Source: Sediminispirochaeta bajacaliforniensis DSM 16054 (GTDB lineage: Bacteria; Spirochaetota; Spirochaetia; DSM-16054; Sediminispirochaetaceae). Taken from it: DNA of 64,000 nucleotides. This document shows positions 38,182-54,860 of this stretch, one piece after another. A program made the translations under genes and the position numbers. Position 1 is the stretch's first letter. Each line of letters starts with the position of its first letter. The notes beneath the pieces were generated by a model. The model saw only the letters and a program-made list of their open reading frames with translations. It was not told the DNA's origin and made no database searches. Location of the stretch: positions 124,001-188,000 of the forward strand of contig NZ_KB899407.1 of NCBI RefSeq assembly GCF_000378205.1, written 5' to 3'.

Positions 38182-38182
38182 A

Positions 38183-38881
38183 CTACTCTCCACCCGCAAC
38201 AGTCGGCTCGATGATTACCGGTGTTATGACAACATCATCCAAAGAATCACCATCCTCCAACTTGAAGGCGCCATAGTAGTTGATCTCTTTACCCGCTATT
38301 GAAGAAAGATCAAGCGGTTCTATCGCTTCTTTTTTCATTCGTGCATTCAATTCGTCGGCCAGACTGGCAAACTGAAGCTGATTCCCTACCTCGGTAAAGC
38401 GAATAAAAGAAACAGAATCACGAATAGCCGTATTTCTAATCACAGGGCCCACCTGCATTTTGGCATCGACCGTTCCCTCGTAAGGCGGGGTATCGAGCAA
38501 CAGCAATCCGTTCCGGGACGAATCATCATAGGAAACAACCCTGGCACTGCCTTTTATCTTAAAGGTAACCCCCATGCCGCCGGCCTTGCTCATGAGCCCG
38601 TATTCTTGGGTGGCCGTATCAGGGTCCTTCTTAAGTGCGGCAAGCAGTGTTTCAAAATCACAAGATTCTTCTTTAAAGGCGGGAATCAGCTTTGTATCCC
38701 ATATTGAATCAACATACGCAACAGGATCAAAGGCTTTTCCACTTTTCGTCCATGTCGAGTATTCATCGCCTTGCTGCTCATTGAGCTCACTGATTCTTTT
38801 TATCGTACACCCACTCAACAGAACGGCTATTCCAATAAGCAGCATTACGAAAGAGCACAATGTCCTTTCTCTCATCATCAT
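38183..38881 (-). CDS. DUF2291 periplasmic lipoprotein of the ABC operon
   Basis: 232 residues. The export signal ends in a lipobox 'VLLSGCTIK', so it should be anchored by lipid on the periplasmic side. The body matches DUF2291 ('DPVAYVDSIWDTKLIPAF', 'RNTAIRDSVSFIRFTEVGNQ'). DUF2291 genes are typically embedded in ribose-type ABC operons, and a role in presenting substrate or helping the transporter is inferred. Three consecutive ATGs exist (38881, 38878, 38875); TGGAG favours the first. Confidence 0.82.
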   Translation of the reverse strand: MMMRERTLCSFVMLLIGIAVLLSGCTIKRISELNEQQGDEYSTWTKSGKAFDPVAYVDSIWDTKLIPAFKEESCDFETLLAALKKDPDTATQEYGLMSKAGGMGVTFKIKGSARVVSYDDSSRNGLLLLDTPPYEGTVDAKMQVGPVIRNTAIRDSVSFIRFTEVGNQLQFASLADELNARMKKEAIEPLDLSSIAGKEINYYGAFKLEDGDSLDDVVITPVIIEPTVAGGE

Positions 38882-38917
38882 GTCCACTCCAGATTCGTAA
38901 AACAGTTGTGTATGGAA

Positions 38918-38945
38918 GGGCCCGGAAAGGAATAGGTCCGGGCCC
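38918..38945 (-). promoter_or_regulatory. Intra-operon stem-loop behind the binding-protein gene
   Basis: GGGCCCGGA (38918-38926) and TCCGGGCCC (38937-38945) form a 9-bp GC-rich stem between the SBP and DUF2291 genes. There is no T run. It likely protects the 3' end of the SBP message, so the binding protein is made in excess over the membrane parts. Confidence 0.65.
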
Positions 38946-38973
38946 CAAAATCAAGATCGGAAAGACGATTTCG

Positions 38974-40038
<1,065 letters not shown>

Positions 40039-40124: not shown

Positions 40125-40138
40125 TGAAATCGATTGCA
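40125..40138. promoter_or_regulatory. Possible auxiliary LacI-type operator
   Basis: TGAAATCGATTGCA differs from the perfect palindrome by one base (G for T in the right half). It is centred 146 bases from the main operator, a distance compatible with DNA looping. It also lies just past the DUF4125 stop codon. Confidence 0.5.
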
Positions 40139-40141
40139 GTA

Positions 40142-40693
40142 CTACGATTTTCCAAGCCGTTTTTCCATCTCGTCGATATTTGTGTAGCCCGACTGGAGGG
40201 CCAGGAATTCATAGATCGCCTTTGACATATTTTGCTTTTCCCGTGAAGAAGAGTCGACATCCTTCCAAAGTAGTTCAAGAGTGGCATCGGAATAGGTCTC
40301 CAATTCGCATCTAAGGTAATTTGCAAAATCATCGATATCGCGGCTGCCTCGCATGATATTCGGATAACGGGAGAGCATCTCGCGTTGCCAACCTACAAAT
40401 CTGGAAACAATCTCGGGGATCCGCTTGCTCTGGCTTACCGGAGGGATGAGGCCTTCCATTCTAGCATACTTTATCGTCATAAGATTTCTTCCCTCCTCCT
40501 CCGCCTGCCGAAGGTCCTGAAGATAGCTCTCACAACAGGAAAGCGACCAGACAGAAAATTGTCCCCGCCTATGCAACTGCATGTCATCAAGATGGGCCCT
40601 GCAAGAAGGCTCTTGCCGTGCGGGAACTCGTAAAAACATGTCAACTTCCCGATCAAGAATTTCTGCAATAATACGTTTTCGGGCTTGATCCAT
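40142..40693 (-). CDS. DUF4125 family protein
   Basis: 183 residues. Features of the DUF4125 family: 'FLRVPARQEPSCRAHLDDM', 'SCCESYLQDLRQAEEEGRNLMTIKYARMEG'-like core and 'RYPNIMRGSRDIDDFANYLR'. It is mostly helical and cytosolic, with no known activity. AAGGAGTTGCTT precedes the ATG at 40693. It is the last gene of LacI, activase, DUF4037, DUF4125, 10 bases after DUF4037. The steady pairing suggests the two DUF proteins work together. Confidence 0.78.
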   Translation of the reverse strand: MDQARKRIIAEILDREVDMFLRVPARQEPSCRAHLDDMQLHRRGQFSVWSLSCCESYLQDLRQAEEEGRNLMTIKYARMEGLIPPVSQSKRIPEIVSRFVGWQREMLSRYPNIMRGSRDIDDFANYLRCELETYSDATLELLWKDVDSSSREKQNMSKAIYEFLALQSGYTNIDEMEKRLGKS

Positions 40694-40703
40694 AAGCAAC
40701 TCC

Positions 40704-41630
40704 TTACTCAATGATCTGCGCCCCGCTCCGTAACCAGGGGGTTTCAATCATTTCGGTTATGCGAAAACCGTACTCCTGTAAAAAGGCTCCGCAGGCAAAA
40801 GAAAATCCCCGCTCCTCCAATTGGGCAACCATGAATCGGGCGATGGCCTCGATAGACTCCTTGAGCGTTCCCGGATCGGAAAGCGCGGCGGCCATGTTAA
40901 TATACCGTGCAAGAAGCTTCCCTTCCGTCCCTTCCTGGGAAAGTGCATGGAAGAGCCATTTATAGTAGGGCCGGTAACGACGACGAAGTAAAAAATAGAG
41001 GGCGGCGGCCTCCTCAAGCGCAGAGGCCCGTGTATATTGGAGCAATGGCATATCGGACCGAAGGAGTGCCCTTGGCAGATTGTATTGCCCGTACTGGCTA
41101 AAGGCAAAACAGCGGGAAGCGATCTTTTTCAACCATAGATCCCTGGGATAATAATGGTTCAGACTCTCCCGAAGAGCACCTATTTCTCCTGCACCATCGA
41201 AGAAAACATCACCATTGGTGGCAAGAGAGAGCCCTTCTTCCCGCATTGCCATCCACTCCTTGATCGTTTCCGGAGGGGACACCCTGCCTATCAGGTGTTC
41301 AAAAAAGAAGGGCACAGTCATGACACCATCCCTGCCCACAGCGGGATCAAAACGCTGCACCGCCCCAAAACCACCGAAAGGCCCCTCAAGACTGCGATAG
41401 AGCTTTTCCATAGCATGGATTTTCTCCTCTGGAGTTCGTGCGGGAAGCCAAAGGCAGAGACGCGCACCCCAATCGTGATCGCGGGAGAACTCGTCGTCAA
41501 AACCGTAACATTCGGATCCATGCCCAACCAATCCAAAGGCCATGGAGGAAACATCATCGGGGAAATGTTCCCGGAATGAGGGCAAAACCCGATCGTGATA
41601 AAAAAGTTTTGAAAGGGCAAGCCCCTTCAT
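40704..41630 (-). CDS. DUF4037 nucleotidyltransferase-like protein
   Basis: 308 residues. The N-terminal 'GLVGHGSECYGFDDEFSRDHDWGARL' region has the GS...D...D-x-D layout of minimal nucleotidyltransferases (pol-beta superfamily); the C-terminal half is helical. DUF4037 proteins may attach a nucleotide to a target, but none is known. The ATG overlaps the activase stop by one base (TGATG), so synthesis is coupled to the glycyl-radical activase. A link to radical-enzyme control or to sugar sensing is an inference from the operon. Confidence 0.8.
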   Translation of the reverse strand: MKGLALSKLFYHDRVLPSFREHFPDDVSSMAFGLVGHGSECYGFDDEFSRDHDWGARLCLWLPARTPEEKIHAMEKLYRSLEGPFGGFGAVQRFDPAVGRDGVMTVPFFFEHLIGRVSPPETIKEWMAMREEGLSLATNGDVFFDGAGEIGALRESLNHYYPRDLWLKKIASRCFAFSQYGQYNLPRALLRSDMPLLQYTRASALEEAAALYFLLRRRYRPYYKWLFHALSQEGTEGKLLARYINMAAALSDPGTLKESIEAIARFMVAQLEERGFSFACGAFLQEYGFRITEMIETPWLRSGAQIIE

Positions 41631-42547
41631 CAATGCCCCGCACCTACGGTGATATCAAGACCAAACCTCTTACCAAGTCCGGCAAGAGGAAGGCAGGCAG
41701 CCTTATCCAAACTCGGAACGCCCTCCATGGAATCCTCACGGCCGAGGGCCGCATATTTTCCCGATCCCAATCGGTGAAAAGGCAGAAGTTCCACCTTCCG
41801 CACCCTCGTTCGGGTGGAAAGAAAGGAGCAGATATCTCCTATTACCTCAGGCGAATCATTTATCCCCGGAATGACAGGGATTCGGACAATGACAGGCTCA
41901 AATTCACGACTCAGCCGGAGCAGATTATTCAGAATAACACCGTTCGGCGCACCGACAACACGTTCATGAACCAGAGGATCGATATGCTTCACATCAAAAT
42001 AGATCAGATTCATATAGGGAAGAATACGCTCGAAGCGGTCCCAAGGGACGCTACCAGCCGTTTCCAACGCCGTATGGATTTCCTCGGAGCGGCAACGGGA
42101 GGCAAGATCGACAAGACCTTCGATTTGCAATAAGGGCTCTCCACCGGAAAAGGTGACTCCACCACCGGAATTCTCATAAAAGCTTTGGTCTTTCATGATC
42201 TCCCGCATAATATCCTCGGAGCTTCGAACTTCGCCGGCAATTCGCCTTGCATTATAAAAGCAGGCATCCACACAGCTGGCACAAAGCGTGCAGCGGTCGT
42301 GAATCGTCACAAAACCAAGGTCAGAAGCAGTATCTATTGCCCCGGCAGGGCAGGCCTCAACACACTTTCCACAACCGACACACTGTTTTCGGTAGTAAAG
42401 AACCTGAGGCCGACGTTGCTGAGACTCAGGGTTCTGACACCAGAGGCAATGCAGATTGCATCCCTTAAAAAAGACGACCGTCCTGATGCCGGGACCATCC
42501 TCCAGGGCATAACGCTCAAGTTCGAATATCGTCAGATTCTCGGCCAC
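41630..42547 (-). CDS. Glycyl-radical enzyme activating enzyme (radical SAM)
   Basis: 305 residues. The radical-SAM cluster motif C30-x3-C34-x2-C37 ('GCNLHCLWC') is followed by two [4Fe-4S] ferredoxin motifs (Cys56/59/62/66 and 86/89/92/96), as in activases of diol-dehydratase-type glycyl-radical enzymes. 'VTFSGGEPLLQ' is the SAM-binding GGE. It makes the glycyl radical on its partner, here very probably the enzyme encoded at 45399. It starts with GTG behind GGGAAGG, 16 bases after the LacI gene, so repressor and activase share one message. Confidence 0.93.
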   Translation of the reverse strand: MAENLTIFELERYALEDGPGIRTVVFFKGCNLHCLWCQNPESQQRRPQVLYYRKQCVGCGKCVEACPAGAIDTASDLGFVTIHDRCTLCASCVDACFYNARRIAGEVRSSEDIMREIMKDQSFYENSGGGVTFSGGEPLLQIEGLVDLASRCRSEEIHTALETAGSVPWDRFERILPYMNLIYFDVKHIDPLVHERVVGAPNGVILNNLLRLSREFEPVIVRIPVIPGINDSPEVIGDICSFLSTRTRVRKVELLPFHRLGSGKYAALGREDSMEGVPSLDKAACLPLAGLGKRFGLDITVGAGH

Positions 42548-42563
42548 GATACAACCTTCCCTC

Positions 42564-43598
42564 TTATCGAATTGCCGGCCTTTTGACGGACCCGACCAGC
42601 TTTCTACAGGTATCGCCTATTTTTAAGGTCGTCGGTACAACAACCCGTTTTTCAACCCCGCCTTGGGAACCATTATTTACCTTGCCGATAAGAATAGCGA
42701 AAGCATTTTCGCATAATGCGGGAATATCTTGTTTCACCGTTGTTAAGTTGGCCTGAAAAAAATTGTGAAAGGGAATGTCGTCAAAGCCGACAAGGGAAAT
42801 ATCTTCGGGAATGGAGATATTTAAGTGCCGGGCCTTGCTCATGGCTCCGTAGGCCATTTGATCATTCGCACTGAAAATAGCGGTGGGCCATTCGGGCAGC
42901 GTCAGGAAATACTCAATGGCGGAAATTCCCGATTCATATCGCAAATCCCCCTGATAGACCAATTCCGGATGAAAGGGAACTCCATATGCATCGAGTGCAT
43001 CGCGATATCCGTGAAAGCGATCTTCCACCGAAGGCCAGTTTTCCGGTCCACTGATAAAAGCGATCCGTTGATGATTCAACTGCAAAAGATATTCCGTGGC
43101 CTGTCGTCCTCCGGCATAGTTGTCGCTACTAACCTCGGAGACAAAGCCTTCCTGAGAATGACGATCAATCAGGACCGTCTCGGTATAGTGCTGAGCCCGC
43201 TCAATGGTTGGAAGGGATATACCTTCGGCAAAAATCACACCTGCAATTTTATTGTCCAATAGGTAGTCAAGATAAATTCGTTCCTTGTCCGCATTATTCT
43301 CGGTATCACAAATCGTAAGAGGGATCCCCCGCTCCATGGCAAGATGACTAATCTTTCTGACAATTAAGGCAAAAAACGGATTTAAAATATCGAAGACAAA
43401 AAGGGCAAGCCCCCAGCTTGATTTTGAACTGAGTTTTGAGGCAAAGGGATTGGGTTTATAGCCCAATTCCTTCATTTTTTCCTCGACATGCTTACGTAAA
43501 GGAGCCGCAACCAATTCAGGGTTATTCAGCACACGAGAAACGGTTGCCGGCGAGGTACCGCAGATTTTCGCAAATTCAGTAATAGTATACCTGCTCAT
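42564..43598 (-). CDS. LacI-family transcriptional repressor
   Basis: 344 residues. The N-terminal helix-turn-helix is 'ITEFAKICGTSPATVSRVLNN', and the hinge helix is 'PNPFASKLSSKSS'. The rest is a type I periplasmic-fold effector domain ending 'LVGFDDIPFHNFFQANLTT'. Two ATGs (43601, 43598) exist; GAGGG suits the second. A perfect 14-bp palindrome overlaps its own transcription start, and near-identical sites lie at the ABC operon and the glycyl-radical enzyme gene. A sugar or sugar phosphate is the expected inducer. Confidence 0.93.
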   Translation of the reverse strand: MSRYTITEFAKICGTSPATVSRVLNNPELVAAPLRKHVEEKMKELGYKPNPFASKLSSKSSWGLALFVFDILNPFFALIVRKISHLAMERGIPLTICDTENNADKERIYLDYLLDNKIAGVIFAEGISLPTIERAQHYTETVLIDRHSQEGFVSEVSSDNYAGGRQATEYLLQLNHQRIAFISGPENWPSVEDRFHGYRDALDAYGVPFHPELVYQGDLRYESGISAIEYFLTLPEWPTAIFSANDQMAYGAMSKARHLNISIPEDISLVGFDDIPFHNFFQANLTTVKQDIPALCENAFAILIGKVNNGSQGGVEKRVVVPTTLKIGDTCRKLVGSVKRPAIR

Positions 43599-43614
43599 CA
43601 TAACCCTCTAGAAG

Positions 43615-43628
43615 TGAAAACGTTTTCA
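43615..43628. promoter_or_regulatory. LacI-type operator at the repressor's own promoter
   Basis: The perfect palindrome TGAAAACGTTTTCA starts 4 bases downstream of the -10 element, covering the start site. It indicates autorepression. Confidence 0.85.
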
Positions 43629-43632
43629 AATC

Positions 43633-43662
43633 ATTCTAAGGGATGAACTCCTTTTCTGTCAA
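43633..43662 (-). promoter_or_regulatory. Promoter of the LacI-activase-DUF4037-DUF4125 operon
   Basis: On the minus strand: TTGACA (43662-43657), 18 bases, TAGAAT (43638-43633), close to consensus. Confidence 0.78.
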
Positions 43663-43663
43663 G

Positions 43664-43717
43664 GTCAGATCAGAAAGCCTTGGCCCCGAAAACAGGGCCA
43701 AGGCTTTCTGATCTGAC
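43664..43717 (-). terminator. 23-bp perfect hairpin after the aldolase gene
   Basis: Arms 43664-43686 and 43695-43717 are exact inverted repeats around the 8-base loop CGAAAACA. The hairpin starts 23 bases past the aldolase stop and abuts the LacI promoter. There is no T run on the minus strand, so it is either a strong structural terminator/insulator or an mRNA stabiliser. Confidence 0.7.
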
Positions 43718-43740
43718 TATCTGAACGCAGAGTGGGGTCT

Positions 43741-44418
43741 TTATACAAGTTCTTGATTTTTTTTGCCGTAATGATTTTTTGCAAAATTCTGCATTGCGTC
43801 AATCTCTTCTCTGGAGAAGAGGCGGATGCCATTACCCAACAACTTCGCATAGAGATATATCTGTGCATTTTTCTCAAGAACTGTACTGATCTTAAGTGCC
43901 ATAGGCATATTCGCAGCGGCAATGAGAGCACCATGACCGGGAAGCAGAACGGCACCATTTTTCCCAAGACCTTTCACGGCAACCTCTCCCAGCTCCGGAG
44001 TACCGGGCAGGGCATAGGGAGAAGCAATAGCAATCTCTTCGCCCACAATCTGAACAAAATCTTCGCTTACCGCAGGCAGGGGTAAACCCGCAACACCAAA
44101 AACAGTGGAAAACGTCGGATGGGTATGAATAACAGCATGGGCATCCGGACGAGCCTTGTACACCGCAACGTGCATATGCTTTTCAATGGACGGCTCTGCC
44201 TCACCCTCAATAATATTCAGATCAAGATCCATGACAACGACATGGTCTGTTTTCACCTTCATATAATCCATACCGCTGGGGCTGATGTACATATAATCGG
44301 TCTCGGGGTCCCGATAGCTGATGTTCCCCCATGTTCCTACGGTAATACCCGTCTTAATCATTTCAACACCGGTCGAAACGATAAGCTCTTTTAACTCCTG
44401 CTTTACTTTACCCTTCAT
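43741..44418 (-). CDS. Class II sugar-phosphate aldolase (FucA/AraD family)
   Basis: 225 residues. Motifs: 'TWGNISYR', 'ISPSGMDYMKVK', the zinc His pair 'VIHTHPTF', the catalytic Glu in 'EGEAEPSIEKHMHVAVY' and the third His in 'LLPGHGALIAA'. FucA-type enzymes split fuculose-, rhamnulose- or ribulose-1-phosphate to dihydroxyacetone phosphate and an aldehyde (lactaldehyde or glycolaldehyde). It could serve the rhamnulokinase-like kinase at 48797. It diverges from a DeoR regulator, with operator-like repeats at the promoter. GGAGG precedes the ATG. Confidence 0.88.
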   Translation of the reverse strand: MKGKVKQELKELIVSTGVEMIKTGITVGTWGNISYRDPETDYMYISPSGMDYMKVKTDHVVVMDLDLNIIEGEAEPSIEKHMHVAVYKARPDAHAVIHTHPTFSTVFGVAGLPLPAVSEDFVQIVGEEIAIASPYALPGTPELGEVAVKGLGKNGAVLLPGHGALIAAANMPMALKISTVLEKNAQIYLYAKLLGNGIRLFSREEIDAMQNFAKNHYGKKNQELV

Positions 44419-44428: not shown

Positions 44429-44455
44429 AATGGTATGTTTAAACCATTTTATGGT
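44429..44455. promoter_or_regulatory. Probable DeoR operator at the aldolase promoter
   Basis: Three alternating half-sites, AATGGT (44429-44434), ACCATT (44443-44448) and ATGGT (44451-44455), lie between the -10 element and the ribosome site of the aldolase gene. Confidence 0.6.
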
Positions 44456-44459
44456 AATA

Positions 44460-44487
44460 ATATTACACAAAAACCCAATTATGTCAA
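44460..44487 (-). promoter_or_regulatory. Aldolase promoter
   Basis: On the minus strand: TTGACA (44487-44482), 16 bases, TAATAT (44465-44460). The match to consensus is strong. Confidence 0.72.
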
Positions 44488-44508
44488 TTAACAAACACAA
44501 ACTAATAA

Positions 44509-44537
44509 TTTACTTTTCATTTATAAATCGATATAAT
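44509..44537 (+). promoter_or_regulatory. Promoter of the DeoR gene, leaderless
   Basis: TTTACT (44509-44514), 17 bases, a perfect TATAAT (44532-44537), then the ATG six bases later at 44544 with no Shine-Dalgarno sequence. Confidence 0.68.
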
Positions 44538-44543
44538 GACGCA

Positions 44544-45323
44544 ATGGGCAACAAAGAAAAACGTCTGGACGCGTTAAAAAAAATGATACAACTCGAACGT
44601 TCCATGAAGATATCGGAAATTTCCGATCGCTTGCATGTTTCTCCCATGACAACGCGCCGCGATATCGAAATTCTCGCCCAGGACGGAACCGTAAAGGTAC
44701 TTCACGGCGTCGTCGTTTCCAATTCCGGCGGTATGGCGGGAGGACTGTCGGATTATATGCTTGCCGTTGCCGAAACTCGCAACATCGAAGAAAAAAAGGC
44801 AATTGCACGCCATGCTCTTAACTTTGTCGAAGAAGACGATATCATATTCATCGACGCCGGCTCTACTACCGAAACATTTGCCTCAATGTTGCCGCCTGAT
44901 ATTCGATTAACCGTCGTTTGTTATTCCATCAATATCTTCCTTGCCGTTGCCAGCCACAAAAATATCGAGGTGCTTCTAACGGGAGGGCATTATAGCCGAA
45001 AAACCACTATTCTGGAGCTGAGCCAGACCTCACCGGTACTGCAACACAACAGAACCCGAAAAGCATTCATATCTGCAAGCGGCTATCACCAGAGACTGGG
45101 TGTTACCTGTGCCCACCAAAGCGAGTGCATAACAAAAAAGGCCGCAATGAACAATACAGCCGAAGCCTTTCTCCTTATGGATTCCTCCAAATTCGATGTC
45201 GTGCATTCCTGCCATTTTGCCGATATTGAACAATTTTCCAGAATCTTTACCAATGAATCAATCCCAAATGAATATCATCGCCTCCTGAAAGAAAAAGGAA
45301 TAACAGTAGACTACGTAAAGTAG
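44544..45323 (+). CDS. DeoR-family regulator (aldolase side)
   Basis: 259 residues. The N-terminal winged helix-turn-helix is 'MKISEISDRLHVSPMTTRRDIEIL'. The C-terminal domain is the sugar-phosphate-binding DeoRC fold: 'IFIDAGSTTETFASML', 'VLLTGGHYSRKTT', 'RKAFISASGYH' and 'LLMDSSKFDV'. It is similar in design to the DeoR protein at 55073. It probably represses the divergent aldolase and is released by a phosphorylated sugar. The start is fixed by the TATAAT box six bases upstream. Confidence 0.9.
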   Translation: MGNKEKRLDALKKMIQLERSMKISEISDRLHVSPMTTRRDIEILAQDGTVKVLHGVVVSNSGGMAGGLSDYMLAVAETRNIEEKKAIARHALNFVEEDDIIFIDAGSTTETFASMLPPDIRLTVVCYSINIFLAVASHKNIEVLLTGGHYSRKTTILELSQTSPVLQHNRTRKAFISASGYHQRLGVTCAHQSECITKKAAMNNTAEAFLLMDSSKFDVVHSCHFADIEQFSRIFTNESIPNEYHRLLKEKGITVDYVK

Positions 45324-45370: not shown

Positions 45371-45384
45371 TGAAATCGTTTTCA
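45371..45384. promoter_or_regulatory. LacI-type operator at the glycyl-radical enzyme gene
   Basis: TGAAATCGTTTTCA, one mismatch from symmetry, sits just downstream of the expected start site and directly before AAGGAGG (45386-45392). It has the same form as the sites at 39979 and 43615, tying this gene to the LacI regulator. Confidence 0.8.
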
Positions 45385-45398: not shown

Positions 45399-47819
45399 TT
45401 GAATAAGCGAATAGCAGCTTTACGGGAAAGGCTTTTTGAGAAGATCCCGGAAATTTGTCCGGAAAGAGCCGTTCTCTTTACCGAATCGATGAAACAATCG
45501 GAAGGTCAACCCATTGTAAAACGAAGAGCCCAGGCCCTGTATGAGGTTCTGGATAAGATGACGATCTTTGTCAGAGATGGCGAACTGATTGTAGGAAATC
45601 AGGCCAGCACCACGAGAGGGGCTCCGGCTTTTCCCGAATATTCGGTCGACTGGATCATAAAGGAGTTTAACGGCGATCCCTACCATTTTGCCGAACGCCC
45701 CTGTGATAAGTTTACCTATTCGGAGAGGACCAAGGAACAACTCCTTGCCACCATTGATTACTGGAAAGGAAAAACCCTTTTCGAAAACGTCTGGAGTCAG
45801 CTTCCCGAAGAGGCACGTGTAGCCTGGGAGATCAACGCCATCGACGATACATGGTGTGCGGCAGCAGGTTTGGGGAACGTACTTCCCGATCATCAGATGG
45901 TTTTGGAACAAGGATTGGAAGGGATCATCGAGCGGGCAGAGAAAGGGCTTGCAGACCTCGATCTCACCGAACCGGGAACCATTTCGCAGTACTGGTTCCT
46001 TCAGGCCGTCGTAACGGCAAATAAGGCAGTGATCAATTTTGCCGGTCGTTTCGCCAATTTACTTCTCGATCTTGCGGAAAAAGAGCCTGATCCAGTCCGC
46101 AAAAAAGAGTTACTCACCATGTCGGAAAATTGTCGGCAGGTACCGGCAAAGCCGGCACAAAGCTTTTGGCAAGCAATCCAGGCGGTTTGGTTCATTCAGC
46201 TTATCCTTCAGATTGAAACCAACGGCCATGCAATCTCCCTGGGACGCTTTGATCAATATCTGTGGCCATATTTTCAGCGAGATATCGAACGTGGCGTACT
46301 GACGCGAGAGAAGGCCCTAGAGCTGGTGGAATCATTCTTCATCAAGGCAAATGAAATCAATAAGTTGCGCTCGTGGGCGGATAGCGAATACTTTCCCGGC
46401 TACCATCTTGCGGAAAATCTCGCCATCGGCGGGCAAACAGCGGACGGCAAGGATGCGGTAAACCAGCTTACCTACACCATTCTCGACGCAACCGCCGATC
46501 TAAAACTTACGAAGCCTTCGGTCTCACTAAAATGGTTCGAAGGGACTTCCGACGAATTCATGGATAAAGCACTCAGTGTCGTCGAAGCCCACAAGGGAGG
46601 ACAGCCAGCCCTCTACAATGATCTTGCGGTCATGAGGATCCTGGATAACATGGGTGTCAAAAAGGAGGATCAGTATGGTTGGGCTCCGGTAGGCTGCATT
46701 GAGGCAACGGTACCGGGAAAATGGGATTTTGCTGCAAAGGGGTCCTGGCTGAACGTCGGGAAAATTTTTGAGATGACACTGAATAACGGAAAAGATCCTG
46801 CAACGGGTATCACCCTCATGAAAGGAGAGGGGGATCTTACCGCTTTTTCCGACACTCATGCCATCATGGAGGCATGTAAAAAGCAACTTTTTTACTACAT
46901 GCGCCTTCAGGTCATTGTCGAGCATATAAGTGATGAAATGCATATTCTACACGACCAGAACGCTTTCCGCTCCTCACTGGTACATGACTGCATCGAACGA
47001 GGTAAATCGCTCATAGAGGGGGGGGCAGTGTATACCGCCGACGGCGGTCCCGCTGCCGGCCATATCTCGGTCGGAGATTCCCTTGCCGCAATTGAATATG
47101 CCGTCTTTGAAAAAGGAATCCTTTCGCTGTCGCAGTTGCAACACGCCCTATCAACCAATTTCGAAGATCAGACCACCAGCCCAAGCGGGGAGGAAATTCG
47201 GCAGCTGATGATAAACAAGGCTCCCAAATTCGGTAACGATGATGATGATGCGGACAAATGGACGGTGGAGATCAACGAGTTTCTGGGATCGACCTACCAA
47301 AAGGCCTTCAAAAGCAGCCGCTACGGTAAAGGCCCAATCCCTGCAACCTTTGCACTGAGCCAAAGCTCCGTAACCGGTAACGTAGCCTTCGGGAAATCCG
47401 TGGGTGCCCTTCCCTGCGGAAGAAAAGCGGGAGAACCGGTCAACAACGGGGTATCCCCGGCAAACGGATCGGAACGAAACGGCCCTACCGCAGTCATCAA
47501 CTCCGAGGCAAAACTTCCGAGTATCTGGTTTCAGAAGGGATCGATCTTCAATATGCGACTTACACCGCAAACGCTCTCCACCGCAGAAGGTCGAAAGCGA
47601 ACCCTGGCGCTGGTAAAAACCCATTTCAAGAATTACCAATACCATATCCAATTCAACGTGCTCGATGATGCAACCCTGGAAGAGGCCCAGAAAAAGCCCG
47701 AAGAATATCGAGATCTCATGGTAAGGATTTCCGGCTATAGCGCTTTCTTCACTCCCTTGAATAAAGAGCTCCAGAACGATGTTATTGCCAGAATGAAGTT
47801 CAACATGGCCGACAAATAA
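45399..47819 (+). CDS. Glycyl-radical enzyme, diol-dehydratase-like but with changed active site
   Basis: 806 residues, full length. The thiyl Cys433 and base Glu435 lie in 'APVGCIEATVPGK', and the glycyl radical is Gly779 in 'VRISGYSAFF'. CxE instead of CC places it in the dehydratase/eliminase branch, not pyruvate formate-lyase. Against glycerol dehydratase as I remember it, the His near residue 164 is Asn160 ('GLGNVLPD') and the Asp near 447 is Lys; His277 in 'NGHAISLGRFDQ' is kept. A different substrate is likely. It starts with TTG behind AAGGAGG. The activase is encoded in a separate, divergent operon at 41630. Confidence 0.92.
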   Translation: MNKRIAALRERLFEKIPEICPERAVLFTESMKQSEGQPIVKRRAQALYEVLDKMTIFVRDGELIVGNQASTTRGAPAFPEYSVDWIIKEFNGDPYHFAERPCDKFTYSERTKEQLLATIDYWKGKTLFENVWSQLPEEARVAWEINAIDDTWCAAAGLGNVLPDHQMVLEQGLEGIIERAEKGLADLDLTEPGTISQYWFLQAVVTANKAVINFAGRFANLLLDLAEKEPDPVRKKELLTMSENCRQVPAKPAQSFWQAIQAVWFIQLILQIETNGHAISLGRFDQYLWPYFQRDIERGVLTREKALELVESFFIKANEINKLRSWADSEYFPGYHLAENLAIGGQTADGKDAVNQLTYTILDATADLKLTKPSVSLKWFEGTSDEFMDKALSVVEAHKGGQPALYNDLAVMRILDNMGVKKEDQYGWAPVGCIEATVPGKWDFAAKGSWLNVGKIFEMTLNNGKDPATGITLMKGEGDLTAFSDTHAIMEACKKQLFYYMRLQVIVEHISDEMHILHDQNAFRSSLVHDCIERGKSLIEGGAVYTADGGPAAGHISVGDSLAAIEYAVFEKGILSLSQLQHALSTNFEDQTTSPSGEEIRQLMINKAPKFGNDDDDADKWTVEINEFLGSTYQKAFKSSRYGKGPIPATFALSQSSVTGNVAFGKSVGALPCGRKAGEPVNNGVSPANGSERNGPTAVINSEAKLPSIWFQKGSIFNMRLTPQTLSTAEGRKRTLALVKTHFKNYQYHIQFNVLDDATLEEAQKKPEEYRDLMVRISGYSAFFTPLNKELQNDVIARMKFNMADK

Positions 47820-47987: not shown

Positions 47988-48491
47988 ATGAAAAGAGTAT
48001 TGTTTATTTTGTTCCTGGCTTTTCTGATACTTACCCCCTTAGCTGCAGCAACCGAAAGCACGAGAGAAATTGCCGGAGTAACCGTGACCTGGAAAGCGGA
48101 AGGCGAGTATGTCCTTATAACCATGTCCGCAAAGACCACCGGCTGGATAGCCGTCGGCATAGAACCGGAGAACAAGATGAAGGGAGCCGATATGTACATT
48201 GGTTATGTGGATGACAAGGGTGCAGTTGTTTTGGAGGATCACTATGGGCACAGAACCTTTGGCCACAAGAGTGATGTGGCACTAGGCGGTTCCTCCGATG
48301 TAGAGATTATTCAGGGAACCGAAAGAGGAGGAGAAACCTCTATTACCTTCCGAATTCCCAAAAACAGCAGGGATGCATACGATAAGCTCCTCGAAGAAGG
48401 AAAAGAATACACAGTGATTACTGCATGGGGAGAGAAAGACAATCTAACTGCACGCCACAAAGGCAGGGGATCGGGAAGGTTACTGCTATGA
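47988..48491 (+). CDS. Secreted DOMON-domain protein
   Basis: 167 residues. A signal peptide ('FILFLAFLILTPLAAA') is followed by a single DOMON beta-sandwich: 'VTVTWKAEGEYVLITMSAKTTGWIAVGIEP', 'KGADMYIGYVDDKG' and 'TSITFRIPKN' in short phrases. DOMON domains bind haem b or sugars; candidate ligands are Met ('NKMKGADM') and His ('GHRTFGHKS'). The protein would face the periplasm. Its stop overlaps the ATG of the next gene (ATGA), which encodes a small haem-type membrane protein, so the pair probably forms an electron-transfer unit. Confidence 0.82.
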   Translation: MKRVLFILFLAFLILTPLAAATESTREIAGVTVTWKAEGEYVLITMSAKTTGWIAVGIEPENKMKGADMYIGYVDDKGAVVLEDHYGHRTFGHKSDVALGGSSDVEIIQGTERGGETSITFRIPKNSRDAYDKLLEEGKEYTVITAWGEKDNLTARHKGRGSGRLLL

Positions 48492-48796: not shown

Positions 48797-50272
48797 TCAG
48801 GGGTTTAAAAGCCTTTCGTAGCGCTGGTAGAGTCTATCCCTACCTTCCTTTGGTTCGAAGTGCAGAGGCTGTACCGAATCGGAAACGATCTTGCGGATAT
48901 CCGTAAGTCCAAGTCCCGGTACATGGTGCATGAGCTGTACAGCAATAGTCCCAAGAGAAGTTGCCTCAACAGGGCCGGCAACCACCGGTTTACCGGAAAT
49001 ATCGGCCGTCATTTGGTTCAGATGATCATTTCTGCAACCCCCGCCGATGATATGAATAACAGGATATTCGGTACCGGTTATTTTCTCAATGTCGCAAATG
49101 GTAGCTCCGTAGTTACAGGCAAGGGATGCATAAATTCCAGCCAAAATGTTATCGAGTTTCTTTTCACCGGTAAGTACCTGGAGGGCCTGAATCATGCTGT
49201 CGGGATTATACAGAGAAGGATGGTTGGGATCGAAAAGCGGGATCTTTTCGTCTCCGAGAAAAGCAGCGGCCTTCAGAGAAAGATCCACAACCTCATCCCA
49301 AGCGAAACGACGATTTTCCCGCATCTCAAGCTCGTTTTTAACATTCTGAAGGATGTGCATTCCTGCGGAATTCTTGAGGAGAGTAATCGTGCCACAAGCT
49401 CCCCCCTCGTTGGCCAATTCGCAGTTATAGACCTCGTCGTTGATCAAAGGTGTAGAAAGCTCGGTACCGATGAGAGACCAGGTACCCGAACTGATAAAGG
49501 CAAAGGGCCCTTCAAGAGAGGGCACCGTTACCACCGCAGCAGCCGTGTCATGGCTGGGAACAGCGACAAAGGGCAGCGGAGCAATATCCAAATAGTCGGC
49601 AATGTCCTGGCGGAGCATGCCGCGCACCGTACCATGGCCGACAACAGGGGGCATGATCCCCTTTTTGATCCCCGCAATATCGAACAGGCTGTCGTCAAAC
49701 CTACCCGAACGCATATTCATCAATTGAGTGGTCGAGGCGATGGATGTTTCGGTATTAAAGCTCCCTGTAAAAAGAAAGTTAAGGAGATCGGGGGTCAACA
49801 TCATTTTTTCTGCAAGGCGGTAATATTCGGGAAGATGGTCCCGAATCCCCACAAGCTGATAAACGGAATTCATGGGATGATTTTGAATTCCGCTCTGTTC
49901 GAACATCTTTTTTCTGCTCTCTTCGCCGAGGGTCCCAAGCCCCAGAGCCCCCAGTTCGTTGCGATAGCAGAGGGGATTACCAAGAAGCTGGCCGGAAGGG
50001 CCGAAAAGCCCGAAATCTATCCCCCAGGTTGAGATGGCAGCAGAAGCCACCGTACCGCCGGCAGCGGCAACCGCCTGTTTCAGGCCTTGCTGCATTTGAG
50101 AAAAAATATGCAGGATATCCCAGTAATCGTACCCCTCGACTCGAACCGTTCCGTTGGGAACCTGCTGAATAACCTCTACTTCAATATTCGTGCCGTCGAA
50201 GTGTCCCAGTACCGTTCTGATTGATGAGTTTCCGCAATCAAATCCGACGCAATGTATCTCTTTTCCGCTCAT
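48797..50272 (-). CDS. rhaB: Rhamnulokinase-like FGGY sugar kinase
   Basis: A 491-residue kinase of the FGGY family. 'VGFDCGNSSIRTVLG' is the phosphate loop, 'ISTWGIDFGLF' and 'AVPSHDTAAAVVTVP' are typical of rhamnulokinases, 'FISSGTWSLIG' and 'IIGGGCRNDHLNQ' bind ATP. It likely phosphorylates L-rhamnulose (or L-fuculose or a related ketose) at O-1 for the class II aldolase. AGGAG precedes the ATG at 50272. It is the last gene of the operon SBP, ATPase, permease, permease, kinase. The needed isomerase is not in the window. Confidence 0.85.
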   Translation of the reverse strand: MSGKEIHCVGFDCGNSSIRTVLGHFDGTNIEVEVIQQVPNGTVRVEGYDYWDILHIFSQMQQGLKQAVAAAGGTVASAAISTWGIDFGLFGPSGQLLGNPLCYRNELGALGLGTLGEESRKKMFEQSGIQNHPMNSVYQLVGIRDHLPEYYRLAEKMMLTPDLLNFLFTGSFNTETSIASTTQLMNMRSGRFDDSLFDIAGIKKGIMPPVVGHGTVRGMLRQDIADYLDIAPLPFVAVPSHDTAAAVVTVPSLEGPFAFISSGTWSLIGTELSTPLINDEVYNCELANEGGACGTITLLKNSAGMHILQNVKNELEMRENRRFAWDEVVDLSLKAAAFLGDEKIPLFDPNHPSLYNPDSMIQALQVLTGEKKLDNILAGIYASLACNYGATICDIEKITGTEYPVIHIIGGGCRNDHLNQMTADISGKPVVAGPVEATSLGTIAVQLMHHVPGLGLTDIRKIVSDSVQPLHFEPKEGRDRLYQRYERLLNP

Positions 50273-50285
50273 GAAAAGGCTCCTT

Positions 50286-51263
50286 TCATCCTTGAGTCCG
50301 CAGCAGGCGTTCCCTGCGTTTATCACTGTAGTAATTTACGACCATTACCAAAATCATTACGAAACCCCAGATCGCAATGGTCATAAACGAACTCACCCTT
50401 AGCAGGTTGAGGCCGCTGGATATAATCTGTAATGTAACAAGCGAGAGGATAAGCCCGGAAACCCGTCCAAAACCTCCCTCGCTACTAACCCCGCCAAGGA
50501 CAGCGGCAAGAATGGTTACAAGCAAATAAGAAGCACCGTAACCCGCCTTGGCAGAATTAAAACGGCTTATCATAATAAGCGCCGCGAACCCGGAAAGCAG
50601 CCCGGAAACAAGATAAGTCCGCAAGATGATACCGGCATTGTTCCCACCATAAAAGTGAGTAGCGACATCATTCGAACCATACATGTAAATATTAAATCCG
50701 GTTGGTGTACGATTCAAGAAAATAGCCATAATGACTGCGAGCATTCCAAAAAGGAGAAGTGGAAACGGAATTCCCAAAAGCATCCCGTTTCCGATAAAGC
50801 GAACCGCTGGCGGAAAACCGGAGATGACATACCCCTTTGTTAAAACGATAGTTATGCCGTTTACGAGGGTCATCGTACCCAAAGTGGTAAGAATGGGAGC
50901 AACACCGATATACGCAATTAATACTCCGTTTAACAACCCGACAAGTAATGCGGCTGCAATTGCCCCTAGCAGAGCAACCATAACCAGCCATCCGGGAGCC
51001 TGAACTCCGCCAAACTTCGGAATCGTAAGAATCATCGCGGCAACAATACCGGCGAGATCGGCAGTGGCGATAATGGAAAGATTTATACCACCCGTAAGCA
51101 TAACAATCATCATGGCAAGCGACAGAACCCCCAACTCAGGAAGCTGAAAAGCCATACCTTGAAAGTTTCCGGCTCGCAGAAAATCTCGAGGATTGAGCAC
51201 CGTCATAAACACAAAAGAGAGAACCATGATGATGGTCAAAACCCTCAATTCTTTCCGTTTCAT
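50286..51263 (-). CDS. Rhamnose/AI-2-type ABC permease 2
   Basis: 325 residues with about nine hydrophobic segments and the family motif 'MLTGGINLSIIATADLAG', plus 'AAVLGGVSSEGGFGR'. It is an inner-membrane channel subunit, paired with the permease gene just upstream, whose stop it overlaps (TAATG). Two distinct permeases match rhamnose (RhaP/RhaQ) and AI-2 (LsrC/LsrD) systems. The kinase starts 13 bases after its stop. Confidence 0.88.
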   Translation of the reverse strand: MKRKELRVLTIIMVLSFVFMTVLNPRDFLRAGNFQGMAFQLPELGVLSLAMMIVMLTGGINLSIIATADLAGIVAAMILTIPKFGGVQAPGWLVMVALLGAIAAALLVGLLNGVLIAYIGVAPILTTLGTMTLVNGITIVLTKGYVISGFPPAVRFIGNGMLLGIPFPLLLFGMLAVIMAIFLNRTPTGFNIYMYGSNDVATHFYGGNNAGIILRTYLVSGLLSGFAALIMISRFNSAKAGYGASYLLVTILAAVLGGVSSEGGFGRVSGLILSLVTLQIISSGLNLLRVSSFMTIAIWGFVMILVMVVNYYSDKRRERLLRTQG

Positions 51264-52279
51264 TATGCGGCCTCCTCTTTTTCGATATCGATAACAGCCT
51301 GGTGATATCCTTTTTTCCCTTGCCAGGAGGTAAATCCGACACTAATGAGAATAACTGCACCGATAAAGACGTCGTACCAAACGGCCGGGATCTTGACGAG
51401 GGTCATTCCGTTTTTGACGACGGCAATAAGAAAAACTCCCAACAGGGTTCCACCGACACTCCCGAAACCACCGGAAAGGCTTGCGCCGCCAAGCACAACC
51501 GCGGCAATGACATCCAACTCCTTTCCGACTATGGAGTTCGGTGCAACGGTTTGTACAAGCAACGCCTGAATTACACCGGCAATCCCGGCCATCATACCCA
51601 TAAAGGAATAAACAAAAATCTGAAGCCGTCTTACAGGGAAACCGACCCGCTCGGCCGAGCCTATATCACCGCCAATGGCGTAGATACCCCGACCAAGTAT
51701 CGTATAACGGAGGAGAAAAAAAGCCAAAACGGTAATCACTGCCCAGAAAAGGGTAATGACCGAAAGCCCATAGGGCGTTCCGGCCCTGGAGACAAGGGTA
51801 AAAACTCTAATATCGGCAAAGGCGCGAAACCATTCGGGAAGGGCATAGATCCACTTCCCGCCGGTTATCACCGTAAGGATTCCATAGTAAAAATTCATGG
51901 TGGCAATGGTCGTTATGATAGGGGCAATCTTAAACTTTGAGATGAGAAAGCCGTTAAAGGCTCCCAGCAGGAGGCCTACCAGAGTGGCAAGGAGCAATGA
52001 TGTAATCATATTTCCGCCCAATTTGATACTCACTACCGCCATCACATACTCAGCAACGGTCGCCGTGGCGGCAAATGAAATATCAATCCCTCCGGAGATC
52101 AAAACAAAAAGAATCCCGATGGCCAGAACACCCATGAAAGAATAGCTTTTCAAAAGATCGAATCCATTCTCCAAGGTAAGAAAATTCGGATTTACCACGG
52201 TGATGGCAGCAGAGAGAATAAGAATAACCACCAATACATGGAATTCATGGGTTTTCATGAAACGTTTCATACTCGTCAT
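51263..52279 (-). CDS. Rhamnose/AI-2-type ABC permease 1
   Basis: 338 residues with about nine membrane segments and the motif 'VLISGGIDISFAATATVAEY', later 'AAVVLGGASLSGGFGSVGG'. It forms a heterodimeric channel with the next gene product. Starts at 52279 or 52270 are possible; the ribosome sequence (GGATGACGAG) favours the latter slightly. The start lies about 10 bases after the ATPase stop. The ORF's further N-terminal residues overlap the ATPase gene and are not needed. Confidence 0.88.
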   Translation of the reverse strand: MTSMKRFMKTHEFHVLVVILILSAAITVVNPNFLTLENGFDLLKSYSFMGVLAIGILFVLISGGIDISFAATATVAEYVMAVVSIKLGGNMITSLLLATLVGLLLGAFNGFLISKFKIAPIITTIATMNFYYGILTVITGGKWIYALPEWFRAFADIRVFTLVSRAGTPYGLSVITLFWAVITVLAFFLLRYTILGRGIYAIGGDIGSAERVGFPVRRLQIFVYSFMGMMAGIAGVIQALLVQTVAPNSIVGKELDVIAAVVLGGASLSGGFGSVGGTLLGVFLIAVVKNGMTLVKIPAVWYDVFIGAVILISVGFTSWQGKKGYHQAVIDIEKEEAA

Positions 52280-52289
52280 CCCTATATCC

Positions 52290-53792
52290 CTATATACTTT
52301 GCGATTCGATGAAGGCCTGAATCTCTTCTTCACTGGCCTCGGTTGTATCAAAGGACCCGATAATACGCCCTTTATGCATCACGAAAATTCTCGAACAATT
52401 GTTCAGCACCTCGGAAATCTCATCTGAAATGATGATGACACCCATTCCCTCCCGTGCCAGTTTTTTTATCGTCGTATGGATACTGCTTTTTGCAGAAACA
52501 TCTATACCGACGGTCGGGTTATCAAGAATAAAGAGTCGGGGTTCGGTAGCTATCCATTTTCCGAGAACAATCCGCTGCTGATTCCCGCCGGATAGGGTCT
52601 TTACCGGTGCATCCAGAGAAGGCACTTTAATTTTTAGCGTCTCAACCCAATAGGCAACGGTCTCATGCAGCTTTTTGGTATCGATAAGTGAAGTTTTCCC
52701 CTGAAGACGATCGATAATGGTCGCCACCAGGTTTCGGGAAACCGACTGGTCCATTACCAGTCCCTGATGGATCCGATCCTCCGGCACATAAGCAATCCCA
52801 TGGTGTTTGGCAGTTTCAACCGAATCAATCGAAACCTCCTCACCGTTCATCTCCATCCGCCCCGAGTCTGCAGGATGAAAACCGAAAATAGAAAGAGCAA
52901 GTTCACTCCTGCCAGAACCTAAAAGCCCTGTTATGCCGACTATTTCTCCTGAATAGATCTCCAGACTTACATTACAAAAACTATGATTCCTGGAAAAATT
53001 TTCCAGTCGAAGAATGGGTTTCCCATTACGGTCAGGAGATATATGATAGGGCTCATACACAGAGGTCTCTCCTGTCATAAGAAATTCTAATTTTTTATCA
53101 TCAATTGTTTTGCCGTCGTATGTACCGATTAATGTCCCGTCTCTGAGAACTGTAACACGTTCTGCAATCTGCATTACTTCGTTAAGTTTATGGCTAATAA
53201 ACAGGCTGGCAATCCCCTTGTTTTTTAGCTCAATGACAACACGCAAAAGGGCATCAATCTCCTTCTTCGTCAGGGCTGTAGTAGGTTCATCCATAATCAA
53301 CAACCGAACATCCCCAGTAAGAGCCCTGCAAATAGCCACTAACTGCTGGTCTGCCATGGAGAGTTCACCTACTCTGGCATCCAAAGGGATAGAAATCCCA
53401 ATCCTGTTCATGGCCTTTGTGGCCGTCGTTTCAGCACGCTTCCAATCCATGAGACATCGCCGTTGGGCAATATTGCTACTCACAGCAATATTTTCCGCCA
53501 CTGTTAAATTCGGGAAAAGCGAAAGGTCCTGATAGATTACCTCTACACCATGGCTAATGGCCGTCCGAGAGCTATGCTGATCCAGCAGTTCTCCATCCAT
53601 GATGATTTCTGCTCCCGCTTCGGGAGCTACAACTCCGGAAATAATCTTAACTAATGTCGACTTTCCCGAACCATTCGTACCAGCCAGACAATGTATTTCA
53701 CCGCGAGCGATGGAAAAATCTACCCCGTCCAGAGCACGAACCCCAGCATACACTTTTGTAATCTGCTTCATTGAAAGAAAAAGTGTTTCCAT
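52290..53792 (-). CDS. Rhamnose/AI-2-type ABC ATPase (two nucleotide domains)
   Basis: 500 residues. The first domain has Walker A 'GTNGSGKSTLVKII' (Thr where Glu is usual) and Walker B 'LLIMDEPTTAL'. The second has the degenerate 'GLLGSGRSELALS', signature 'LSGGNQQRIVLGKW' and 'FILDNPTVGID', where Asn replaces the catalytic Glu after Walker B Asp. One competent site is normal for this RbsA/RhaT class. It drives sugar import at the inner membrane. Confidence 0.92.
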   Translation of the reverse strand: METLFLSMKQITKVYAGVRALDGVDFSIARGEIHCLAGTNGSGKSTLVKIISGVVAPEAGAEIIMDGELLDQHSSRTAISHGVEVIYQDLSLFPNLTVAENIAVSSNIAQRRCLMDWKRAETTATKAMNRIGISIPLDARVGELSMADQQLVAICRALTGDVRLLIMDEPTTALTKKEIDALLRVVIELKNKGIASLFISHKLNEVMQIAERVTVLRDGTLIGTYDGKTIDDKKLEFLMTGETSVYEPYHISPDRNGKPILRLENFSRNHSFCNVSLEIYSGEIVGITGLLGSGRSELALSIFGFHPADSGRMEMNGEEVSIDSVETAKHHGIAYVPEDRIHQGLVMDQSVSRNLVATIIDRLQGKTSLIDTKKLHETVAYWVETLKIKVPSLDAPVKTLSGGNQQRIVLGKWIATEPRLFILDNPTVGIDVSAKSSIHTTIKKLAREGMGVIIISDEISEVLNNCSRIFVMHKGRIIGSFDTTEASEEEIQAFIESQSI

Positions 53793-53817
53793 AACTCCTC
53801 TACTTTCGCTTGTAAAA

Positions 53818-53844
53818 ACCGGCGTCGCAGAATACGGCGCCGGT
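53818..53844 (-). promoter_or_regulatory. Intra-operon stem-loop behind the second binding-protein gene
   Basis: ACCGGCG (53818-53824) and CGCCGGT (53838-53844), a 7-bp GC stem 24 bases past the SBP stop, just before the ATPase gene. It likely sets the SBP:transporter ratio, like the stem at 38918 in the other ABC operon. Confidence 0.5.
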
Positions 53845-53867
53845 AATAAGAAAAACAGCCGACCAAA

Positions 53868-54860
53868 TCAGAAACCGAAACTGTCAACATTTTCCTTTGT
53901 GATATCAGCCATGGCATCAACCTTGATAACATCCCCATCCACTACAACGGCACCGATTCCGGGAATCTCTTTCAAGTCGGCAAGACTACCGCCGTCAAGA
54001 AGATACTTTGCCACGTAAGTCAGAGAGTAGCCGGCATCCTTCGGATCCCAGAGAACACCATGGCTCATGGATCCATCCTTCAAATAGGGCGCAGCATGTC
54101 CGGGAATGACGTTTCCGACAACGGCGACCTTTCCAGCCAGGCCTTTTTCTTTCAAGGCCTGAGCAGCTCCCGGAGGTCCCAGACTTCCGAAACCGATGAT
54201 ACCCTTCAAATCCGGATACGTTTTCAGCAGCTCAAGCGTCTTTTGCTTGGCAAGTTCCTGGTCCTCACCACAGGGAATCCGGCTGGTTACCAGCTCGAGC
54301 CCCGGGTAGTGCTCCTTTGCATATTTAAGGCCTTCATCTGCCCAAAGGTTATGAAGGGGGACGGTAAGGCCGCCTACAAAAATGGCGTATTGTCCTTTAT
54401 CACCCATGTATTTAACAAGCATATCCCAGGTATGGCGACCAAATTCCACATTATCGATAAGCTCGATATCAACATCTTTACCCGCCTGATCAGGTGATTC
54501 ATGGGTCAGGATTAATATGCCCTTCTCTCTAGCCTTCTGGAACACAGGTTCGAGAGCGGTGGCATCATTTGGTGTAATACAGATGGCGTCAACCCCTTTA
54601 CTTATCAAGTCTTCCACCATCTTTACCTGCTGAGCAGGGTCTGCATCGGATGGACCAATTTGGTAAGCATTCACGTCAAGATCTTTGGCAGCTGCATCAA
54701 CTCCTTCTTCAAGACGATTGAACCAAGGAATTCCCGTGATCTTTACGACTGTTACAATCTCATACTTATTCGCATCTGCGGCATCCTTTTGCCCACCTGC
54801 GAAAAGATGCAATGGCAACAGTACAAGAACGATCACGATAATAAGAACGATCTTCTTCAT
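53868..54860 (-). CDS. Rhamnose/AI-2-type substrate-binding protein
   Basis: 330 residues. The signal peptide ends 'LPLHLFAGGQKDA'. The mature chain matches RhaS/LsrB: 'VVKITGIPWFNRLEEGVDAAAK', 'GPSDADPAQQVKMVEDLI', 'CITPNDATALEP' and 'HESPDQAGKDVD'. It captures L-rhamnose, AI-2 or a related sugar in the periplasm; the rhamnulokinase-like gene in the operon favours a deoxyhexose. AAGGAGGAGCC precedes the ATG. It is the first gene of the five-gene operon, controlled from a 212-base intergenic region shared with a divergent DeoR gene. Confidence 0.9.
   Translation of the reverse strand: MKKIVLIIVIVLVLLPLHLFAGGQKDAADANKYEIVTVVKITGIPWFNRLEEGVDAAAKDLDVNAYQIGPSDADPAQQVKMVEDLISKGVDAICITPNDATALEPVFQKAREKGILILTHESPDQAGKDVDIELIDNVEFGRHTWDMLVKYMGDKGQYAIFVGGLTVPLHNLWADEGLKYAKEHYPGLELVTSRIPCGEDQELAKQKTLELLKTYPDLKGIIGFGSLGPPGAAQALKEKGLAGKVAVVGNVIPGHAAPYLKDGSMSHGVLWDPKDAGYSLTYVAKYLLDGGSLADLKEIPGIGAVVVDGDVIKVDAMADITKENVDSFGF

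Follow-up and report, generated by a model that had tools for sequence, protein, structure and literature searches.

A predicted new subfamily of YbiW-branch glycyl-radical enzymes in spirochaetes, with a probable link to D-apiose

Sequence is a poor guide to what a glycyl-radical enzyme does. The closest characterised relative of the enzyme described here is YbiW of E. coli, which we take to be a ring-opening lyase acting on 1,5-anhydroglucitol 6-phosphate. In E. coli, fsaA lies beside ybiW, which is consistent with a sugar-phosphate role for YbiW. The same fold family includes B12-independent glycerol dehydratase (1r8w) and propanediol dehydratase (5i2a); in diol dehydratases of the 1r8w type, His164, Ser282 and Asp447 presumably position the substrate and its leaving hydroxyl. 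In GRM5 fucose/rhamnose microcompartments, an aldolase, a reductase and propanediol dehydratase act in that order (PMC6325248). Pathways for D-apiose have also been described (Carter et al. 2018), and E. coli ST131 strains carrying the SE15-type D-apiose cluster grow on this sugar (PMC13001218).

The enzyme, its pocket and its relatives

We analysed a 64,000-nucleotide stretch of Sediminispirochaeta bajacaliforniensis DSM 16054 (the window), which carries the following gene:

45399 to 47819, plus strand: glycyl-radical enzyme, 806 aa, with C433/E435/G779 and pocket residues N160/A278/K447/S656 (translation, Pfam, alignments)

The reading frame is intact and its translation free of stops. It begins at a TTG codon, with an AAGGAGG ribosome-binding site read six bases upstream, and aligned homologues begin at the identical residue. 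Matches to the Pfam PFL-like (617 bits) and Gly_radical (98 bits) domains, together with the glycyl-radical loop, the catalytic Cys and a cognate radical-SAM activase, place the protein in the glycyl-radical enzyme superfamily. GCIE stands at 432-435 in all members of its clade, without tandem Cys residues, as in the eliminase (C-x-E) class. No other PFL-like protein was found in this genome. A same-genus genome encodes two more glycyl-radical enzymes with activases (35% and 31% identity; G003:C1:4505356-4507674 and 3785951-3787462). Directly 3′ of the window enzyme is a gene for a small secreted DOMON-domain protein (47988-48491), found among the loci examined only here and in the same-genus genome.

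Alignment with 1r8w paired the catalytic residues as C433=C433, E435=E435 and G763=G779, and the pocket residues as H164=N160, H281=H277, S282=A278, D447=K447 and Y640=S656 (1r8w first in each pair). An earlier sequence-only reading had described Cys433, Glu435 and Gly779 as intact and His164 and Asp447 of glycerol dehydratase as replaced by Asn160 and Lys447; the translation and this alignment bear it out down to the residue numbers. N160, K447, C433, E435 and G779 are invariant in 13 of 13 aligned sequences, and N160 and K447 are also kept in one Treponema and three clostridial members. The invariance of N160 and K447 across the clade indicates that the pocket change is a fixed family trait and not drift. 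Also common to the clade are the motifs GLGN (containing Asn160; GFGN in one member), RSW, GCIEA-x-x-PGKWDFA(A/C)KG (containing Lys447) and an RYGKGP-type insertion. An AlphaFold model made from 13 close relatives had a mean pLDDT of 47.6, too poor for inspection of the pocket.

The best PDB matches of the enzyme are YbiW structures (8id7, 8yjn, 6xs4). The two proteins fall within one larger group of the tree, the window enzyme in a separate clade, and share the GCIE, GKW and RYG[RK]GP motifs as well as a Ser at the Tyr640 position. However, they are only 38% identical, and His165, Ser283 and Thr455 of YbiW correspond to Asn160, Ala278 and Lys447 in the window enzyme. With the glycerol and propanediol dehydratases the enzyme has in common the fold family, the C433-x-E435 motif, the glycyl radical and the activase type. 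In contrast, their His164, Ser282, Asp447 and Tyr640 are all replaced, and the window enzyme carries the RYGKGP insertion and lies on a separate branch.

In a maximum-likelihood tree, the Asn160/Lys447 clade received support of 100/100. It sits within an 18-member group that includes YbiW and several orphan enzymes (100/99, with a weakly supported inner order), with glycerol dehydratase, propanediol dehydratase, 9rco and PflD lying outside it. The tree was built without CutC, HypD, IslA and related families, and identity with CutC, HypD or sulfopropanediol dehydratase was ruled out by NCBIfam cut-offs only. The best equivalog score was 510 bits, against cut-offs of about 990-1150, and the models for CutC, HypD, sulfopropanediol dehydratase, HPAD, indoleacetate decarboxylase, PFL1 and PRK09983 (PflD-type) all remained far below threshold. 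The earlier placement among dehydratases/eliminases thus holds for the eliminase type, outside the glycerol/propanediol group. That reading had named clustering with proven propanediol or glycerol dehydratases, together with matching activity, as what would speak against it; the tree sets the enzyme apart from them. Judged by these comparisons, the enzyme represents a new subfamily of the YbiW-like branch; its unusual pocket is fixed and its operon coherent.

Identity to the window enzyme is 74-81% for spirochaete homologues, 61% for one uncultured bacterium, 55-62% for three Clostridia and 52% for one Treponema. A search of 274 Treponema-family genomes returned a single clade member, and a 391-genome sample of the class to which an uncultured Clostridia MAG (locus L025) belongs returned three, at 55-62% identity. 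Such low numbers indicate that the enzyme family is rare. In the open-access literature, we found no paper linking glycyl-radical enzymes to anhydroglucitol, or in substance to apiose; the sole co-mention of apiose was in a CO2 review.

Operon content and comparison with sugar pathways

The genes around the enzyme are as follows:

40142 to 40747, minus strand: DUF4125 protein (domain match), kept in spirochaete loci
40704 to 41633, minus strand: DUF4037 protein (Pfam-type match), kept in spirochaete loci
41630 to 42547, minus strand: radical-SAM activase (TIGR02494, 347 bits, above cut-off)
42564 to 43601, minus strand: LacI-family regulator, 60-77% identical in spirochaete relatives, with operators found
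43741 to 44418, minus strand: class II aldolase, FucA/AraD superfamily (motif comparison, profiles)
44430 to 45323, plus strand: DeoR-family regulator, likely true start about 44544
48797 to 50326, minus strand: rhamnulokinase-like FGGY kinase, with an orthologue inside the enzyme operon in L060, L039 and L061-L063
50286 to 54860, minus strand: second CUT2 importer, comprising permeases, ATPase and a RhaS/LsrB-like binding protein, in the kinase operon
55073 to 55837, plus strand: DeoR-family regulator, divergent from the second importer (ORF list)

The activase gene adjoins the enzyme gene in most spirochaete loci (the remaining loci end before it) and in operons L016, L039 and L061-L063. The DUF4037 and DUF4125 genes (40142-41633) overlap each other, and the former also overlaps the activase gene, an arrangement conserved across spirochaete loci; the same pair is present in a limonene ring-cleavage operon (PMC12583861). 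Conserved operon content consists of the LacI regulator, the enzyme, the activase and a CUT2 importer, to which most complete operons add a rhamnulokinase-like kinase and a class II aldolase. In the Treponema and the three Clostridia, the enzyme, the activase, the rhamnulokinase-like FGGY kinase, the CUT2 importer and the class II aldolase form a compact operon with a LacI-family regulator beside or inside it. In a Sphaerochaeta MAG, a single run of genes comprises LacI, enzyme, activase, kinase, importer and aldolase together with DUF4037, DUF4125 and DUF2291. In the window, the kinase lies with the second importer (48797-54860), and the aldolase and activase lie at 41630-44418. The locus L010 encodes, 3′ of its enzyme, a different class II aldolase and an LsrF-like thiolase (12453-13892).

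No isomerase, alcohol dehydrogenase or aldehyde dehydrogenase was found inside the window, Treponema, clostridial or Sphaerochaeta operons, and the earlier remark that no dehydrogenase accompanies the enzyme agrees with this at the level of the operon. Its companion claim, the absence of microcompartment shell genes, extends to the whole genome, in which PF00936 has no match; a microcompartment locus was accordingly rejected. Aldehyde:ferredoxin oxidoreductase genes lie near the cluster in L006 (15106-15699), L016 (5390-7363) and L019 (1-1737), and these neighbours suggest an aldehyde product somewhere in the pathway.

A rhamnulokinase-like kinase, a FucA-like aldolase and a RhaS-like binding protein near the enzyme would suit an ordinary 1,2-propanediol or glycerol dehydratase working in an L-rhamnose or L-fucose pathway. 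We regard this as extremely unlikely, since the tree separates the enzyme from both dehydratase families, the pocket residues differ, and neither lactaldehyde reductase nor shell genes occur nearby. The L-rhamnose pathway was rejected because the genome has no rhamnose isomerase RhaA. The L-fucose pathway is unlikely, the genome having a single distant fucose/arabinose-isomerase-like protein on another contig. The aldolase keeps the catalytic Glu, with P-[ST]-I-E in place of PSSE, an AraD-like TWGN and a C-terminal YG. The altered PSSE residue and the AraD-like features suggest that its substrate also differs from fuculose 1-phosphate.

The presence of an aldolase and a glycyl-radical enzyme in one locus recalls GRM5, and an unencapsulated route of this kind was considered. 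The kinase and aldolase would act first, converting D-apiose phosphate to dihydroxyacetone phosphate (DHAP) and glycolaldehyde with no isomerase, and the radical enzyme would act last on a reduced C2 or C3 product such as ethylene glycol. Formally, apiose results from an aldol addition between dihydroxyacetone and glycolaldehyde, so a kinase and an aldolase would be enough; the step order has its precedent in GRM5 microcompartments (PMC6325248), and the aldehyde:ferredoxin oxidoreductase genes near L006, L016 and L019 would also fit. However, this locus has no shell, reductase, aldehyde dehydrogenase or isomerase genes, and its enzyme belongs to a different subfamily. Small-diol enzymes keep His164, Ser282 and Asp447, all three of which are lost here; a reductase is absent from every operon examined, and no RhaB-like kinase was detected in several spirochaete MAGs that have both enzyme and importer. 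Based on these observations, we consider such a route improbable.

A conserved LacI operator and the importer

Between the importer and the enzyme, a LacI-type palindrome recurs. The sites and the importer genes are:

35520 to 36656, minus strand: CUT2 permease, RbsC-like (homology)
36628 to 38199, minus strand: CUT2 ATPase, RbsA-like (homology)
38183 to 38887, minus strand: DUF2291 lipoprotein, typical of this CUT2 importer type (domain match, gene order)
38974 to 40026, minus strand: CUT2 substrate-binding protein, best PDB match 5ibq/4ry0, likely true start about 39930
39979 to 39992: LacI operator TGAAATCGATTTCA, upstream of the importer (motif search)
40125 to 40138: LacI operator TGAAATCGATTGCA, upstream of the importer (motif search)
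43615 to 43628: LacI operator TGAAAACGTTTTCA, upstream of the LacI-activase operon (motif search)
45371 to 45384: LacI operator TGAAATCGTTTTCA, upstream of the glycyl-radical enzyme (motif search, conservation)

The palindrome TGAAANCGNTTNCA has four sites in the window, all within the enzyme cluster: one 5′ of the enzyme gene, one 5′ of the LacI gene and two 5′ of the binding-protein gene (38974-40026). It gave 8 strand matches against 1.67 expected, and none of 100 shuffles reached 8. Upstream of the enzyme it is kept in 13 of 13 spirochaete relatives checked; the loci of Treponema and the Clostridia yielded no match, and their LacI-type regulators are more divergent. Conservation of TGAAANCGNTTNCA upstream of both enzyme and importer supports their predicted co-regulation. 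The window motif search found no LacI operator at the second importer (50286-54860), and this transporter was rejected as the co-regulated one. The sequence-only reading had proposed a sugar- or polyol-derived substrate delivered by a co-regulated importer; the operators support this in the case of the importer at 35520-40026, though not in that of the second importer, and a sugar-type substrate is likewise supported, now narrowed to D-apiose or a close relative.

This narrowing comes from homology of the transporter and of neighbouring genes. The ligand in 5ibq is, we assume, D-apiose. The closest annotated relatives of the importer are found in alphaproteobacterial operons with the same gene order, including DUF2291 (binding protein 61%, ATPase 51% and permease 60% identical). 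OiaX is encoded in three of the four such operons examined, and in the one tested by profile the adjoining gene encodes the D-apionate lactonase ApnL; the profile scores were 777 for OiaX (cut-off 700) and 1049 bits for ApnL (cut-off 750). The importer of the E. coli SE15 D-apiose cluster is of the same type and 40-52% identical. The window thus encodes a D-apiose-type SBP-DUF2291-RbsA-RbsC importer as judged by homology and gene order only. In addition, AptAB/AplK-like split transketolase and/or FGGY kinase genes flank the enzyme in five spirochaete loci (L006, L007, L010, L011 and L012), and counterparts of these genes adjoin Pfam Apiosidase genes in Listeria and Monoglobus. Based on these observations, the substrate of the enzyme is probably D-apiose or a close relative. 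Unlike the described D-apiose pathways, however, the window encodes neither AptAB/AplK nor ApsD/ApnL/OiaX, and an isomerase of the type in L012 was not found in its genome. Binding proteins from the clostridial and Treponema operons are about 30% identical to that of the window and match ribose/allose-type proteins, so it is the spirochaete subclade that carries the apiose link.

In four enzyme-carrying spirochaete MAGs (the sources of L006, L009, L010 and L011), neither a RhaB-like kinase nor an L012-type isomerase was detected at the limits used, absences that are weak evidence in MAGs. These absences make the enzyme appear independent of the kinase/aldolase branch and speak for a place early in the pathway. 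This suggests that importer and enzyme form a core, with kinase/aldolase and kinase/transketolase as alternative tails.

A variant of anhydroglycolysis unrelated to apiose would explain the locus differently. The importer would take up a free 1,5- or 1,4-anhydroalditol, the FGGY kinase would phosphorylate it, a YbiW-like opening would give a 1-deoxyketose phosphate, and the class II aldolase, in FsaA's place, would release hydroxyacetone and an aldose phosphate. The relationship to YbiW, the common RYG[RK]GP insertion and GKW motif, the position of ybiW beside fsaA, the pairing of a YbiW-like enzyme with fructose-6-phosphate aldolase in L067, and the AraD-like TWGN and lost Ser of PSSE in the window aldolase all speak for it. 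On the other hand, D-apiose is the sugar indicated by the importer and the flanking genes in spirochaetes, ketose-1-phosphate enzymes are the nearest relatives of the kinase and aldolase, and YbiW retains His165 where the clade has Asn160. The enzyme has no PTS or FSA-type aldolase neighbour, and is accompanied instead by a CUT2 importer, an FGGY kinase and a class II aldolase. We therefore view this variant as unlikely.

Proposed reaction and pathway

The reading that we prefer, with a probability of roughly 45%, is that this YbiW-branch subfamily acts early in a sugar pathway, with D-apiose or a close relative as its substrate, at the point where an isomerase would be expected. The enzyme would act on the imported sugar or its first derivative; besides D-apiose itself, candidate substrates are its polyol and an anhydro or furanose sugar. 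We infer the substrate, the order of the steps and which C-O bond breaks. The activase would set a radical on Gly779, from which it would pass to Cys433, and conservation of Cys433, Glu435 and Gly779 supports this usual thiyl-radical start. The Cys433 thiyl radical would then abstract a hydrogen from the carbinol carbon adjacent to a C-O bond, Glu435 would accept the hydroxyl proton, and the neighbouring C-O bond would break, so that a ring is opened or a hydroxyl lost. The product would be a keto- or deoxy-sugar made without isomerase or dehydrogenase. After phosphorylation by the kinase, it would be cleaved by the class II aldolase of the window, the Clostridia and Treponema, or by an AptAB-type transketolase in some spirochaetes, to yield triose phosphate together with either a small carbonyl compound or a C2 unit that is transferred.

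Since Asn160, Ala278 and Lys447 replace residues that position the substrate and the leaving hydroxyl in diol dehydratases, the enzyme likely has either a substrate that is larger or anionic, or another leaving group; the loss of His164, Ser282 and Asp447 is as compatible with an altered leaving group as with an altered substrate. Speculatively, a phosphate could be bound by Lys447 and the RYGKGP insertion. Against the preferred reading, isomerisation of D-apiose is within reach of conventional enzymes, which makes a radical enzyme look superfluous for this step alone, and for apulose phosphate one would not readily expect a class II aldolase as partner.

Alternatively, the enzyme might be a radical mutase that rearranges the branched skeleton to a linear pentulose, from which kinase and aldolase would give DHAP and glycolaldehyde. 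Every gene of the clostridial operon would then be used, and the loss of His164, Ser282 and Asp447 might disfavour hydroxyl loss. This argument is purely chemical, however, and we know of no glycyl-radical mutase; we rate the proposal as very unlikely.

To our knowledge, no D-apiose pathway employs a glycyl-radical enzyme. We hold it to be doubtful that the locus encodes a further pathway for D-apiose (or its polyol) that is strictly anaerobic and has the radical enzyme in place of the isomerase and dehydrogenases of the known routes; in the strongest form of this idea, a branched sugar would be isomerised or rearranged by radical chemistry new to the superfamily. If the D-apiose reading is true, it would add an anaerobic route, beyond the pathways known to us, for a sugar found in pectin and in the cell walls of aquatic plants, and a rare oxygen-sensitive radical enzyme would help to degrade a branched plant sugar such as apiose in a new way. 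The conserved operator and an importer of likely known specificity tie the fixed-pocket clade to a short list of substrates, which makes this orphan radical enzyme directly testable.

A Chloroflexota plasmid (L087, CP069395, 2789-12325) encodes a 39%-identical enzyme and an activase after genes annotated as a D-allose operon (alsB, alsC, alsK). L041 (G071:C476, 5913-11073) holds two tandem glycyl-radical enzymes, about 42% identical to that of the window, with one activase, an SDR, a hydroxyacid dehydrogenase and an FGGY kinase. L064 (G635:C46, 1024-13431) combines a 46%-identical enzyme with a CUT2 binding protein, a xylulokinase (XylB above cut-off) and an activase, and also encodes a pyruvate/acetoin-dehydrogenase-like complex. 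It might support a 1-deoxyxylulose route to acetyl-CoA and glyceraldehyde 3-phosphate. This gene set of an orphan relative would suit a 1-deoxyketose product, which speaks, weakly, for a ring opening or a dehydration to a methyl ketone by enzymes of this branch.
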